This document shows positions 10,938 to 45,418 of a DNA stretch of 64,000 nt, in pieces. A program made the translations under genes and the position numbers. Each line of letters starts with the position of its first letter. Positions within the stretch are counted from its first letter, which is position 1. The DNA is from Burkholderiaceae bacterium (lineage in GTDB: Bacteria > Pseudomonadota > Gammaproteobacteria > Burkholderiales > Burkholderiaceae_C). The stretch is taken from the NCBI GenBank assembly GCA_026125795.1, contig JAHCKM010000001.1, positions 620,001 to 684,000 of the forward strand. The letters run 5' to 3'. Under the pieces are notes generated by a model. That model did no database searches. It saw nothing but the letters and a program-made list of their open reading frames with translations, and had not been told where the DNA came from.

Positions 10938-10980
10938 GACGCGATCCGCCCAGTCCGGGCGGCTGGTGACCGGTCCGGCA

Positions 10981-11010
10981 AAAAAAGACGGCGCCCAAGG
11001 GCGCCGTTTT
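10981..11010. terminator. Bidirectional rho-independent terminator, copy 1
   Basis: A perfect 9-base stem (10988-10996 with 10999-11007) is flanked by six A on the left and four T on the right, so it can stop transcription from htpX and also from the minus-strand small gene. The same 46-base sequence recurs 122 bases downstream. Confidence 0.8.
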
Positions 11011-11053
11011 CAAGCTGAGGAGGAGACAACGGCCGCTGGGCCGTTGCGGCGAA

Positions 11054-11108
11054 GGCTCACTTCGCGCCAGCGAAGTGAAGGCGCGAAGCGCCGGCCGGAG
11101 CCAAAAAA
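11054..11108. repeat. Dispersed repeat, copy 1 (inverted copy at 21609-21660)
   Basis: This stretch lies between the two terminator copies and itself can form hairpins (cacttcgcgccagcgaagtg is an imperfect palindrome). Its reverse complement recurs, with a handful of changes, after the ModE-like regulator at 21609-21660. No coding function is seen. Confidence 0.7.
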
Positions 11109-11132
11109 GACGGCGCCCAAGGGCGCCGTTTT
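11103..11132. terminator. Bidirectional rho-independent terminator, copy 2
   Basis: The same hairpin as copy 1 (stem 11110-11118 with 11121-11129), with A and T tracts on each side, identical to the first over about 46 bases. It sits 44 bases after the end of the minus-strand small gene and is its natural terminator. Confidence 0.8.
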
Positions 11133-11172
11133 CAAGCTGAGGAGGAGAAAAAGGAGACGAGCGAAACAACCT

Positions 11173-35163: not shown

Positions 35164-35370
35164 CTCAGTACCGCCCGGCCGCTCCGAAGGTACTGAGCGC
35201 TACCCGGGGGGCAGCGAACGCAGTGAGCGTGGGGCTTCATTTCAGCGATTGTGCAGCGCCCGGGTCGCGGCCTGCAGGTGCTGCTATGCAAGCACGAGCA
35301 TATCGCCAGCACGTGCAGCGACGCCGAGAATCCGCACAGCGGTCGCGCTGCTGCGCCGCGGCCAACCCCC
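35164..35370. promoter_or_regulatory. Divergent moeA/tupB regulatory region with candidate oxyanion operator
   Basis: The moeA-proximal half is repeat-like (cccggggggcagcgaacgca and neighbours, a phrase shared with the 46.5 kb repeat). The tupB-proximal half has lower GC and contains TATGC-N8-GCATA (35285-35302) followed by TCGC, an inverted repeat that loosely resembles ModE-class sites. Control by the ModE-like regulator at 20477 is a guess. Confidence 0.4.
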
Positions 35371-36084
35371 ATGAATTCCATCGCCGACAGCCTGCTGCTG
35401 GCTGCGCAGCTGATTTCACGAGCCGATGCCGACCTGTGGCGCATCGTGGGCTTGTCGCTGCGCGTCAGTGCCACCGCGTGCCTGATCGGCGCGCTGATCG
35501 GCCTCGCGCTCGGCGCGTGGCTCGCGGTGGCGCGTTTTCCGGGCCATCGCGCGGTGGTGTGGGGCGTCAACACGCTGCTCGCGCTGCCGTCGGTGGTGGT
35601 GGGTCTGGTGGTGTACCTGCTGCTGTCGCGCTCCGGCCCGCTCGGCGCCATGGGCATCCTGTTCACGCCCACCGCGATGGTGATCGCGCAGAGCATCCTC
35701 GTCGTGCCGCTGATCGCCGCGCTGTCGCGCCGCCTCGTGCTCGAGGGGCTGAGCGAAGGCGGCGATCAGCTGCGCTCGCTCGGCGCCGGGCCGTTCCAGA
35801 GCGCGCTGCTGGCGCTGCTGCACGAGCGCTTCGGCGTGCTCACGGTGCTGCTCACCGCATTCGGGCGCGCGGTGTCGGAAGTGGGCGCCGTGATGATCGT
35901 GGGCGGCAACATCGACGGCTTCACGCGCGTGATGACCACCGCGATCGCGCTCGAGACCAGCAAGGGCGACCTGCCGCTGGCGCTGGCGCTCGGCGTGGTG
36001 CTGCTCGGCGTGGTGGGCGTGATCAACCTCGTGATCGGCGCGGTGCAGGGGCGTACGTCGCTCGAGCGTGAGGCCTATGCCTGA
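35371..36084 (+). CDS. tupB: Tungstate ABC transporter permease TupB
   Basis: A 237-residue permease with about five membrane segments and the TupB/WtpB-type sequence: LSLRVSATACLIGALIGLALG, NTLLALPSVVVGLVVYLLLSRSGPLG, the EAA-like loop EGGDQLRSLGAGPF and FGRAVSEVGAVMIVGGNI. With TupC and TupA it imports tungstate with high selectivity. The order tupB-tupC-tupA differs from the common tupABC. The ATG at 35371 fits the family; the upstream open frame is the regulatory gap. It overlaps tupC by eight bases. Confidence 0.92.
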   Translation: MNSIADSLLLAAQLISRADADLWRIVGLSLRVSATACLIGALIGLALGAWLAVARFPGHRAVVWGVNTLLALPSVVVGLVVYLLLSRSGPLGAMGILFTPTAMVIAQSILVVPLIAALSRRLVLEGLSEGGDQLRSLGAGPFQSALLALLHERFGVLTVLLTAFGRAVSEVGAVMIVGGNIDGFTRVMTTAIALETSKGDLPLALALGVVLLGVVGVINLVIGAVQGRTSLEREAYA

Positions 36085-36934
36085 CCACGATGCCGTCCGG
36101 GACCTCGTGGCACGCACGCTGGCCGATGCGATGCGCGAAACCAGGCCCGCCGAGCCGCTGGTGGTGCTGGAGCACGCCGGCGCCCGCTTCGGCGACGTGC
36201 AGGCGCTGCGCAACGTGAACCTCACGCTGCGCCGCGGCGACCGCCTGATGCTGGTGGGCGCCAACGGATCGGGCAAGACCACGCTGCTGCGCGTGCTGCA
36301 TGGCCTGGTCCCGTTCGAAGGGCGGCGCGACGTGATGGCCATCTCAAGGAACGAAGGGCCGCTCCCGAGTTCCTTGACCCCCATGGGGGGCGGGCCGGGT
36401 GTCAGCCCGGCCCTGGGGGCACCAAGGACCCGCGAGCCGGTGATCGCGATGCTGTTCCAGCGCCCGTTCCTGCTCAGCCTGTCGGTGCGCTGGAATGTGC
36501 TGCTGGGCCTGTGGCTGCACGGCGTGCCGCGTGCGCAGCGCGAGCAGCGCTGCCAGCGCGCGCTGCAGCGCGTGGGGCTCGATGCGCTGGCCGCGCGTTC
36601 GGCGCGTTCGCTGTCGGGCGGCCAGCAGCAGCGCCTGGCGCTGGCGCGCGCGTGGGCGCTGGAGCCCGACATCCTGCTGCTCGACGAGCCGACGGCCAAT
36701 CTCGACCCGAGCGCCAAGCGCGAGGTGGAGCGGCTGATCGATGCGCTGGCCGACGACGGCGTCACGGTGGTGATGAGCACGCACAACCTCGGCCAGGCCA
36801 AGCGCCTGGCCACGCGCGTGGCGTACCTCGAGGCGGGGCGCCTAGTGGTCGAGCTGCCGGTCGACCGTTTTTTCAACGATGCCCTGCCATCCGAGGCGGC
36901 GTTGTTCCTCAAAGGAGAGTTGCCGTGGACCTGA
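36077..36934 (+). CDS. tupC: Tungstate ABC transporter ATP-binding protein TupC
   Basis: A 285-residue ATPase with Walker A GANGSGKT (residues 61-68), Q-loop Gln128 in MLFQRPFLL, signature LSGGQQQRLALARA, Walker B ILLLDEPTANLD and H-loop STHNLGQ. About 29 residues between Walker A and the Q-loop (about 90-118) are low-complexity Gly/Pro/Ser and come from a hairpin-rich repeat in the DNA; a normal ATPase of this family lacks them. All catalytic motifs remain intact and the frame is open, so it may still work. Start ATG 36077; GTG 36068 is an alternative. Confidence 0.9.
   Translation: MPDHDAVRDLVARTLADAMRETRPAEPLVVLEHAGARFGDVQALRNVNLTLRRGDRLMLVGANGSGKTTLLRVLHGLVPFEGRRDVMAISRNEGPLPSSLTPMGGGPGVSPALGAPRTREPVIAMLFQRPFLLSLSVRWNVLLGLWLHGVPRAQREQRCQRALQRVGLDALAARSARSLSGGQQQRLALARAWALEPDILLLDEPTANLDPSAKREVERLIDALADDGVTVVMSTHNLGQAKRLATRVAYLEAGRLVVELPVDRFFNDALPSEAALFLKGELPWT
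36343..36429. repeat. Hairpin-rich repeat inserted in frame in tupC
   Basis: Nested inverted repeats: aaggaac (36346-36352) with gttcctt (36369-36375); ccccc-atg-ggggg centred near 36384; and the perfect gggccggg (36392-36399) with cccggccc (36406-36413). It ends in ctgggggcaccaagga. The style matches the intergenic palindromic repeats of this window, but here it lies inside an essential ATPase domain and has no stop codon in the tupC frame. Confidence 0.75.
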
Positions 36935-37746
36935 AGATCGTTCGACGATTGTGCTTGGTGGCCTTGGGTGCCGTGCTGGCGGCGCCGGCCTGGTCGCAGG
37001 ACAAGTCGATCGTGATGGCGTCGACCACATCGACCGAGCAGTCCGGATTGTTCGGCCACCTGCTGCCGTTGTTCAAGCAGGCCAGCGGCATCGACGTGCG
37101 CGTGGTTGCGGTGGGCACCGGCCAGGCGCTGGACACCGGCCGGCGCGGCGATGCCGACATCGTGTTCGTGCACGATACGGTGGCGGAGGAGAGGTTCGTC
37201 GCCGAAGGCTTCGCGACCAGGCGCCTGCCGGTGATGTACAACGACTTCGTCGTCGTCGGCCCCAAGTCGGATCCGGCCAGGGCCAAAGGCAATGACATCG
37301 CCGCCGCGCTGAACAAGATCAAGGCCAGCGGCGCGCCGTTCATCTCGCGCGCCGATAAGAGCGGCACGCACGCGGCTGAACTGCGCCTGTGGAAGGCCGC
37401 CGGCGTCGACATGGCGGCGGCCAAGCCGGCCGGCTACAAGGAATGCGGCTGCGGCATGGGTCCGGCGCTCAACATGGGCACGGCCACCAACGCGTACGTG
37501 CTGACCGACCGCGGCACGTGGCTGTCGTTCAAGAACCGCGGCGAACTGGCGATCGTGGTGGAAGGCGACAAGCGCCTGTTCAACCAGTACGGCGTAATGG
37601 TGGTGAACCCGGCCAAGCACCCGCACGTGAAGAGCGCGCTGGCGCAGCAGTTTGCCGACTGGGTGGTGTCGGCCGCCGGGCAGAAGGCGATCAGCGACTA
37701 CAAGATCGACGGACAGCAGTTGTTCTTTCCGAACGCGGAGCGCTGA
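36925..37746 (+). CDS. tupA: Tungstate-binding periplasmic protein TupA
   Basis: A 273-residue protein with a signal peptide (RRLCLVALGAVLAAPAWS) and the TupA family sequence: MASTTSTEQSGLF (the oxyanion-binding TTS loop), VVAVGTGQALDTGRRGDADIVFVH, FISRADKSGTHAAELRLWKAAG, GMGPALNMGTATNAYVLTDRGTW, and QYGVMVVNPAKHP. It captures tungstate for TupB/TupC. It starts at a GTG that overlaps tupC by ten bases, with AGGAGA placed inside tupC, so translation is coupled. It ends nine bases from the convergent modC. Confidence 0.95.
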   Translation: MDLKIVRRLCLVALGAVLAAPAWSQDKSIVMASTTSTEQSGLFGHLLPLFKQASGIDVRVVAVGTGQALDTGRRGDADIVFVHDTVAEERFVAEGFATRRLPVMYNDFVVVGPKSDPARAKGNDIAAALNKIKASGAPFISRADKSGTHAAELRLWKAAGVDMAAAKPAGYKECGCGMGPALNMGTATNAYVLTDRGTWLSFKNRGELAIVVEGDKRLFNQYGVMVVNPAKHPHVKSALAQQFADWVVSAAGQKAISDYKIDGQQLFFPNAER

Positions 37747-44475: not shown

Positions 44476-44620
44476 GAGGCCCCCTTGGCGCCTGCGGCGC
44501 CGCCTGGCCCGCAGAGGGGCCAGGCGCTCGCCAGGCGTAGCCCGTCCGCAGGGACGGGCCATGTCCAGGCTCGCTCGCCCCGAGGGGGAGCGAGCCATCT
44601 TGGGGTGGCCCGGCGATGGC
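44476..44620. repeat. GC-rich palindromic repeat between livG and livF
   Basis: The gap holds several inverted repeats: ggcgcctgcggcgcc (44489-44503), gcctggcc/ggccaggc flanking 44503-44524, ccgtccgcagggacgg (44542-44557) and ctcgctcgcccc/gggggagcgag (44571-44594). The ggcgcctgcggcgcc unit also occurs at 17103-17117 in the formate dehydrogenase gap. No gene is present. Confidence 0.6.
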
Positions 44621-45418
44621 TCATGCAGCGGTCTCCTCGGGCTCGAGCATTTCATCACCGAGATACGCCTCGATCACCGCGGGGTCGCGCACGACCTCGG
44701 CCGGCGACGCATCGGCGATCTTGCGCCCCTGGTCGAGCACGATCACGCGCTCCACGTGCTTGAGCAGCGTGGTCACCGCGTGCTCGATCCACACCACCGC
44801 GAGGTCGAGCTCGTCGCGCATGCGGCGGATCAATCGCGCCATCTCCTCCACCTCGGCCTCGGTGAGACCGGCCGCCACCTCGTCGAGCAGCAGCAGCTTC
44901 GGGCGTGTGGCCAGCGCCATGCCGATCTCGAGCAGGCGCTGCTGCGCCGGCGTGATGGCCGCCGCGGGCAGTTGTGCCTGCGATTGCAGCCCGATCAGCG
45001 TCAGGATGCTCGCCGGCGTGCGCAGCGCCCACGGCACCGACGGCTCGTCGCCCCACAGCCAGTAACGCCGCGGCCGGCGGCCGGCGAACTTGAGGCCGAA
45101 GGCGATGTTGTCGAACGCTGTCAGGTCGGCGAACACGCGCGGCGTCTGAAAAGTGCGCGCGATGCCGTGCGCGGCATAACGGTGCGGGCCGCGACCGGTG
45201 AGCGTGCGGCCCTGTGCGATCAACTGCCCGCTGGTAGGAGCGACGACGCCGGAGATCGCGTTGAAGAACGTGGTCTTGCCGGCGCCGTTGGGCCCGATGA
45301 TGCCCACCAGCTCGCCGCGTGCGAACGTGGCGCTCACCGCGTTGACCGCAGTCAGACCGCCGAAGCGCACCGTGACATCGTGGGCCTCCAGCAAGGCAAC
45401 GGCACTTGGCTCAGACAA
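44621..45418 (-). CDS. livG: ABC transporter ATP-binding protein LivG-like
   Basis: A 265-residue ATPase with Walker A GPNGAGKTTFFN, the LivG-type GIARTFQTPRVFADLTAFDN, a divergent signature region (ITPAQQRLLEIGMALATRP in place of LSGGQQ), Walker B LLLLDEVAAGLTEAEVEEM and VVWIEHAVTTLLKHV. The DEVAAGLT Walker B (usually DEPxAGL) is a change seen in some aromatic-acid LivG proteins. The likely start is a TTG at 45418 overlapping the livM stop; no ATG is available near the N-terminus. Confidence 0.9.
   Translation of the reverse strand: MSEPSAVALLEAHDVTVRFGGLTAVNAVSATFARGELVGIIGPNGAGKTTFFNAISGVVAPTSGQLIAQGRTLTGRGPHRYAAHGIARTFQTPRVFADLTAFDNIAFGLKFAGRRPRRYWLWGDEPSVPWALRTPASILTLIGLQSQAQLPAAAITPAQQRLLEIGMALATRPKLLLLDEVAAGLTEAEVEEMARLIRRMRDELDLAVVWIEHAVTTLLKHVERVIVLDQGRKIADASPAEVVRDPAVIEAYLGDEMLEPEETAA

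Follow-up and report, generated by a model that had tools for sequence, protein, structure and literature searches.

The tupC-like gene of a member of the Burkholderiaceae very probably received an 81-bp, non-autonomous mobile hairpin repeat, one member of a Burkholderiales superfamily, after the split from its known congeners. We regard the element as an insertion in tupC because relatives lack it, it is repeated in the genome, four genes are each longer by a net 81 bp, and eight of its copies are present in open frames. The gene is located in a stretch of 64,000 nucleotides, which is referred to as the window throughout.

The insert in tupC and its structure

Within the window, tupB-like, tupC-like and tupA-like genes form one row (Table 1). 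The product of the tupC-like ORF scored 97.5 bits with ABC_tran. The TupB-like gene yielded 227 bits with NF038017, which exceeds the cut-off, and 155 bits with the TupB model NF041773, which is under its cut-off, and the TupA-like gene yielded 232 bits with NF041772, under its cut-off of 400. As proposed in an earlier note made from the letters alone, the frame remains open across the insert, the 288-residue ORF being continuous, and the ATPase motifs are intact: Walker A, the Q-loop, the signature and Walker B are kept in the alignment with relatives. The insert is located between the first two of these.

The same note had described an in-frame, Gly/Pro/Ser-rich insertion of 87 bp and 29 codons. 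Its frame and composition hold, whereas the insert in fact comprises 81 bp and 27 codons, the previously assigned end lying 6 bp too far when judged against the congeners. Likewise, the three inverted repeats are present, with arms of 9, 5 and 8 bp instead of 7, 5 and 8 bp, and hairpin 1 stands beside the others rather than being nested with them. The arms of hairpin 1 (36344-36352 and 36369-36377; 9 bp, inverted-repeat search) and those of hairpin 3 (36392-36399 and 36406-36413; 8 bp) are 100% paired, and the sequence of hairpin 3 had no second match within the window when up to three mismatches were allowed. The 81-bp insert folded better than 200 out of 200 dinucleotide shuffles, both as DNA (z -3.7) and as RNA (z -2.8).

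Table 1. Features of the tupC region and contexts of the strong copies of the element. Positions are those of the window unless a contig of the host genome (G000) is named; R1 is the covariance model of the element.
Feature	Position	Strand	Description
Weaker member between moeA and tupB	35164-35236	+	R1 E 0.0034
tupB-like gene	35251-36084		
tupC-like ABC ATPase gene with insert	36068-36934	+	288-aa ORF; GTG start at 36068 or ATG at 36077
Inserted element	36343-36423	+	81 bp = 1 nt + 77-bp core + 3 nt; 27 codons; 74% GC; gap of 81 against three congeners
Hairpin 1	36344-36377	+	9-bp stem TCAAGGAAC/GTTCCTTGA closing the 16-nt loop GAAGGGCCGCTCCCGA
Conserved motif GGGCCGCTCCCGAG	36356-36369	+	superfamily hallmark; 63 exact GGGCCGCTCCCRAG in the host genome, backwards control 0
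CCCCC-NNN-GGGGG hairpin	36378-36390	+	C run able to pair instead with the terminal GGGGG at 36415-36419
Hairpin 3, GGGCCGGG/CCCGGCCC	36392-36413	+	inverted repeat
Diverged superfamily member	44544-44623	-	R1 E 1.9e-5; abuts the apparent stop codon of a minus-strand gene (by eye)
Copy in TupC			between Walker A and Q-loop; frame SRNEGPLPSSLTP
Copy in NuoC/D-like protein			between Complex1_30kDa and 49kDa domains; frame SRNEGPLPSSLTP; presumably a [NiFe]-hydrogenase-like subunit (sub-threshold Pfam match)
Copy in SulP			inside the STAS match; frame LKERRAAPEFLDP-like
Copy in Hpt protein			inside the Hpt match; frame LKERRAAPEFLDP-like
Copy in Ser/Thr kinase with DUF4384			between domains; frame APRAG..GVKELGSGPSFL-like
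Copy in TamB-like protein			frame APRAG..GVKELGSGPSFL-like; NCBIfam E 3.4e-7, far below cut-off
Copy in L-aspartate oxidase NadB			frame APRAG..GVKELGSGPSFL-like
Copy in FtsQ			after the Pfam domain, before the last residues; frame STKGRSRADSTS
L117	G000:C3:180139-180212		C-terminal end of a CcmG-like thioredoxin, immediately ahead of ccmH
L106			M17 peptidase / LptF/G flank
L107			HAD hydrolase / TetR flank
L112			PCMT / WS/DGAT flank
L115			permease / Bmp flank
L116			DUF5329 / EamA flank

Transcribed and translated as part of TupC, the element would add a 27-residue Gly/Pro/Ser-rich loop to the protein. The columns of the insert hold 2-7 residues in the five closest relatives and 16-17 residues in 30 of 36 ABC ATPases aligned with TupC, the latter being among the matches listed in a scan of named genomes. 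Of the 80 loci among the matches listed in that scan, about 5 are close TupC relatives by identity; the closest, from Rubrivivax sp. Prado185 (69% identity), is without the insert, and the loop motif is absent from all 80. The wider ABC family thus varies in length at the insert site, which argues that the site tolerates length change. Judged from the sequence, the insert would form a surface loop, and since it is located at a length-variable place of the family, the ATPase probably tolerates it and is probably functional.

A family of hairpin repeats in the host genome

Searching the host genome (6.57 Mb in 6 contigs) with the 111-bp region as a query revealed at least 42 matches at E <= 10, counting the query itself, and at least 11 other matches better than 1e-12, both counts being lower bounds as 40 of 51 candidates were scored. 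The covariance model R1, built from 16 copies of the element, yielded at least 77 matches at E <= 0.1, comprising 17 strong (E < 2e-7; L101-L117) and 60 weaker ones, again lower bounds with 150 of 7488 candidates scored. Hence, the palindrome for which the earlier note had suggested a genome search is repeated in 17 strong copies.

In the core of about 77 bp that the copies share, the loop GNNGGGCCGCTCCCRA is enclosed by a stem of about 9 bp, which is followed by the CCCCC/GGGGG hairpin and then by another GC-rich hairpin and the closing GGGGGC. A second subfamily carries different stems (GAGTCAAC, GGCGGCGG), which likewise pair. Under one end rule the 17 copies are 77 to 83 bp long, and 81 bp fits subfamily 1 best. 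At high identity the unit occurs once in the window (36343-36423). The two diverged members given in Table 1 bear out the claim that intergenic repeats of the same style are found in this window, and the loop motif with up to two mismatches occurs there 4 times versus 4.5 expected, showing no excess over chance.

We also observed repeats of other kinds. A further subfamily of the host genome, with the motif GGGCCGCTCCCAAG (L100, L092, L082, L087 and L088; e.g., G000:C5:504140-504271), has the context ATGAGCCGCCGGGCCGCTCCCAAGGCGAAT...GGAGG...ATG, in which a ribosome-binding-like GGAGG and stop/start codons are seen by eye; the copies of L100 stand in tandem with a 59-bp period. The loci L029/L030 (G000:C4:414193-414423) constitute a tandem array of 78-bp units from another subfamily with CAGTCGGC stems. 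At positions 10978-11154 of the window there are two 55-bp direct repeats, 95% alike, each containing a GGCGCC hairpin and then a short T run.

The stem of hairpin 1 varies in sequence among copies with its pairing kept, and the loop GGGCCGCTCCCRAG is conserved. In alignment A1, 87.1% of the cells pair compared with 79.3% after shuffling, and 28 cells show double changes compared with 10.2 +/- 2.3, a value reached by 0 of 500 shuffles; moreover, a shift of the partner by one, two or three columns makes every measure fall. Of the five covariation measures, two are not above the shuffles, namely the pairs changed on both sides (7 versus 5.5, with 80 of 500 shuffles reaching 7) and the further pair types (15 versus 15.1, reached by 348 of 500), and most of the covariation signal in A1 comes from the two subfamilies. 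For 34 distinct stems located beside GGGCCGCTCCCRAG in other genomes, 72% of positions are paired versus 47% with shuffled partners (maximum of 1000 shuffles, 54%), and for 39 stems of the host genome 75% are paired versus 50% (maximum, 58%). The pairing could result from selection for folding or from the repair of imperfect palindromes during replication.

Empty sites and the length of the insertion

The genus sample consisted of six genomes (G000-G005), the host included. With a cut-off of E <= 1e-40, TupC was present in four of the six, and hence in three of the five congeners searched; these three proteins lack the insert and have RRDVMA-PEGRAPVIAMLFQ or a similar sequence. In 150 sampled genomes of the family, TupC was found at E <= 1e-60 in 18, the host and one congener included. 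Two family matches (L038 and L045) failed the motif filter and were excluded, and the alignment contained 18 sequences: that of the host, three from congeners and 14 from other family members. The insert was absent from 17 of 17 relatives. The earlier note had named conservation of the residues in TupC across the order, as an old family-specific loop, as the outcome that speaks against an insertion; the residues are lacking in the TupC of all three congeners and of the 14 other family members.

The joined flanks of six in-gene copies were then searched in the genus. For SulP, NadB, Hpt, TamB and the NuoC/D-like gene, congeners gave matches across the joint; in this genus search none was listed for the kinase gene. 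The empty sites stem from congeners that are 70-86% identical in DNA at these places, rather than from a sister strain. The alignment gap amounts to 81 bp for TupC (three congeners), SulP (three), NadB (four) and Hpt (two, the third congener piece having ended before the insert site); the NuoC/D-like and TamB alignments were too uneven for the gap to be measured. Counted between BLAST anchors, the net length is 81 in two of three cases for SulP, four of four for NadB, two of three for TupC and one of two for TamB, the TamB locus L292, excluded from the gap alignment, being used in this count. The departures for SulP (L269, 82) and TupC (L032, 78) reflect indels inside the anchors, those for Hpt (108-116) and TamB (L293, -51) anchors too far from the site; the NuoC/D-like gene gave 78 and 90.

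Removal of 1 + 77 + 3 bases from nadB results in RHL-RRTE, compared with RHLRRNE in one congener. NadB has 34 residues where the solved L-aspartate oxidase 5kxj has 7, a net difference of 27.

No target-site duplication was seen when the end identity of the 17 copies was scanned over net lengths of 77-85: there was no run at 81, and the only, mild excess was observed at 79, with GCTCA-like sequences at both ends. Likewise, the ends of the 17 copies are not complementary by eye, as terminal inverted repeats would be. With neither a target duplication nor a terminal inverted repeat seen, transposition in the usual sense may be assumed for the element only provisionally.

In-gene copies and their reading frames

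We listed the ORFs spanning the 17 copies and compared them with Pfam and NCBIfam. Of the 17, eight are located within open frames of eight different genes (Table 1); as the search for in-gene copies started from open frames, their being in frame is partly by construction. Thus, seven genes in addition to tupC hold the element in frame, in agreement with the view that a palindromic element became part of a protein. Domains span or flank the element in seven of the in-gene copies, and FtsQ keeps C-terminal residues after it. The seven internal copies of 81 bp are each open in three to five of the six frames and contain a stop in one to three. Over the eight in-gene copies four different reading frames are used, which indicates that the DNA, not the peptide, is the conserved unit.

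Eight other copies were classed as intergenic, two of which (L115 and L116) abut or overlap a stop codon. As a control for split genes, we inspected the coding ORFs on both sides: they match different families in five of these eight (Table 1), and for L109, L110 and L111 a coding ORF could be judged on one side only. Among the 17 strong copies we observed none that interrupts a gene by a frame shift or a stop. The element would be pictured as selfish or neutral DNA persisting in genes, its survival there presumably resting on a length that is a multiple of three and on at least half of the six frames being free of stops.

Occurrence beyond the host genome

The exact loop motif GGGCCGCTCCCRAG was found in 192 of 399 genomes of the family, with up to 86 occurrences per genome and 63 in the host, compared with 0 to 3 per genome for the motif read backwards. 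R1 matched in at least 10 of 300 genomes of the order, the host included, a lower bound with 15 candidates scored per genome. In six named genomes, R1 gave at least 5 matches for Rubrivivax sp. Prado185, a single one each for Pigmentiphaga (E 2.2e-5) and Tepidimonas (E 0.66), and none for two Bordetella genomes (150 candidates scored each) and one Massilia genome. With the TupC copy as a query among replicons, two plasmids matched and nothing else. Two other subfamilies, used as queries, had matches, most of them covering part of the query, on replicons of Paraburkholderia, Burkholderia, Variovorax, Azoarcus, Acidovorax, Comamonas and Rhodoferax. Phages gave no match to the element, and viral contigs none for one 22-base pattern.

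On the conjugative IncP plasmids pAKD16 (L266, 3972-4050) and pAKD34 (L267), a copy is placed between the convergent genes selA and sdpA. Its 3′ half is that of the family and its 5′ hairpin and loop are different, which suggests that hairpin modules may be exchanged. As a separate observation, Y1_Tnp gave no match in any of the six genus members (G000-G005), though 291 of 399 family genomes have one.

In other genomes, 45 loci carrying the motif close to their centre were considered, of which 12 passed a codon-bias screen for an in-gene position and 9 were judged real; L141, L144 and L151 were judged unreal from their peptides, and L201 was excluded from alignment A3. For seven of the nine, Pfam domains span or flank the element, the hosts being a GGDEF/EAL protein, an aminotransferase, a Mur ligase fusion, glycyl-tRNA synthetase alpha, an RND pump, a topoisomerase and a P-type ATPase; L154 has an exonuclease domain upstream only, and L142 has no domain. 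Glycyl-tRNA synthetase alpha, encoded by glyQ, contains 27 residues between aligned blocks versus 3 in the structure 7eiv. Both glyQ and ftsQ are essential in other organisms.

We tentatively put forward, as a wider reading that is somewhat doubtful at present, that a Burkholderiales-wide hairpin family defined by its structure plus a 16-nt loop, rather than by the sequence of its stems, keeps entering genes, including glyQ and ftsQ, its most uniform form here being fixed at 27 codons. If so, the element would be a recurrent natural source of Gly/Pro/Ser-rich protein loops, moved by a mechanism other than RAYT that leaves no target duplication.

Mobilisation and alternative explanations

Our guess at the mobiliser is a protein acting in trans that would read the folded single strand, with its conserved loop and variable stem. 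Mobility of the Y1 type involves hairpins and leaves no target duplication. Both features resemble those of the element, and with Y1_Tnp so common in the family, a loss from the genus may have occurred; a RAYT, the Y1 REP transposase, is nevertheless an unlikely mobiliser. Y1_Tnp was found in 0 of the host genome and the five congeners, three of which are < 90% complete, the same search giving a match in 5 of 14 control genomes. Moreover, by hand count 33 of 49 genomes with at least ten loop motifs have Y1_Tnp (67%), compared with 73% of the 399, so that motif-rich genomes show no positive association with it. The host genome is also without PF07282 (TnpB/Cas12f-type); as neither PF07282 nor RAYT was found in it, both were rejected as mobilisers.

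The insert might also have been domesticated, its hairpins regulating the expression of tupC-tupA or its peptide giving TupC a new property. The copies that abut a neighbour's stop codon (L115, L116) and the one that fills a convergent intergenic gap in pAKD16, as transcribed REPs do, would fit such a role. We nonetheless consider it improbable: a single species among the relatives searched carries the insertion, the element has entered functionally unrelated genes, and the same DNA gives rise to four peptides.

A removal of the insert from the mRNA, or its skipping by the ribosome in the style of an intron or a translational bypass, is suggested by the strong hairpins, and the earlier note had advised checking RNA for excision. 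This is a very improbable explanation and found no support. The seven internal copies of 81 bp contain stops in one to three of six frames, and yet no gene was seen to be interrupted by a strong copy through a stop or a frame shift. Such interruptions would do no harm if the element were excised or skipped, although eight cases are few. In addition, none of 12 loci had an Rfam match at the gathering score.

That the insert is an old, lineage-specific TupC loop, GC-rich and palindromic by chance at a site that is length-variable in ABC ATPases (30 of 36 with 16-17 residues), is scarcely credible and refuted by the repeat copies and the empty sites: it is absent from 17 aligned relatives, three congeners included, and the same DNA is found in other genes in other frames.

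The insertion of a mobile hairpin repeat bears on a more general matter. The best-known cases of protein-coding palindromes are those of Rickettsia, whose life as an intracellular parasite makes relaxed selection an easy excuse. Here, similar inserts are found in a betaproteobacterium with a large genome and, in relatives, in core enzymes. The empty sites of the congeners and the near-exact boundaries make it directly testable how a piece of selfish hairpin DNA is turned into a segment of a functioning protein, and inserts of this kind are to be expected by annotators and structural biologists who work on proteins of Burkholderiales.

Relation to known repeat systems

MITEs and hairpin elements derived from IS200/IS605 are short, dispersed and have structured ends. 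In contrast to these, no terminal inverted repeats or target duplication were seen here, and a matching transposase was not found among the two families searched. Membership among MITEs was rejected given the lack of terminal inverted repeats and target-site duplications in the 17 copies. Rfam gave 0 matches above the gathering score in the 12 loci, and its best match in the window at 36000-37000 was far below the cut-off.

REPs tagged with GTAG/CGTC are described as decorating proteins from within ORFs, many with 20-30 residues and in several bacteria including Thauera, and as able to supply stop codons to neighbours (PMC3733652). The decoration of proteins by palindromes is shared with the element as far as that description goes. 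However, none of the 17 copies has GTAG or its complement, and in the 5 of 17 that have CGTC or its complement close to an end its place varies; the unit studied here is 81 bp long with several hairpins, in a genus in which no RAYT was found. A REP/RAYT membership was therefore rejected on the tag and on the Y1 transposase.

The RPEs of Rickettsia (Ogata et al., as described in PMC10969869 and PMC3733652) are repeated palindromes that occur as in-frame insertions in genes of unrelated function; they are about 150 bp long, each encoding a conserved peptide (PMC10969869). In-frame insertion in unrelated genes, eight in our case, is the feature in common with the RPEs so described, and here it is backed by empty sites for TupC, SulP, NadB and Hpt. 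On the other hand, the element is 81 bp long versus about 150 bp, belongs to a different bacterial class, and encodes four peptides in four frames instead of a conserved one. Hence, the comparison with RPEs drawn in the earlier note stands for the mode of action, in which the element appears to work like an RPE by description; it does not extend to family membership, the family being GC-rich, betaproteobacterial and probably BRE (PMC3110155).

By description rather than by sequence, the element is probably of a kind that is already named, the Beta-proteobacterial repeat element or BRE (Hot et al. 2011, PMC3110155), and within the open-licence literature searched the account in PMC3110155 is the only one of a fitting repeat. 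In that account, BREs measure 75-91 bp in Bordetella with a GC content of about 69%, are usually intergenic, form tandem arrays and are in some cases located wholly within coding sequences; their hosts are Bordetella, Comamonadaceae and Azoarcus (PMC3110155). The element is likewise GC-rich and in the range of 75-91 bp, with a 77-bp core, an 81-bp insert and 74% GC; it is also multi-copy, intergenic, in tandem (L029, L100) and in some cases within coding sequences. The hosts overlap by way of the two other subfamilies, in Azoarcus and genera of the Comamonadaceae, as compared by description and not by sequence. In two genomes of Bordetella, the genus of the 75-91 bp BREs, R1 gave no match. The section of PMC3110155 on the repeat gives no structure, empty sites or frame analysis, and the open-licence literature searched yielded none on in-frame BRE inserts with boundaries. 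What the present analysis contributes to such a family are in-frame coding inserts with measured boundaries.
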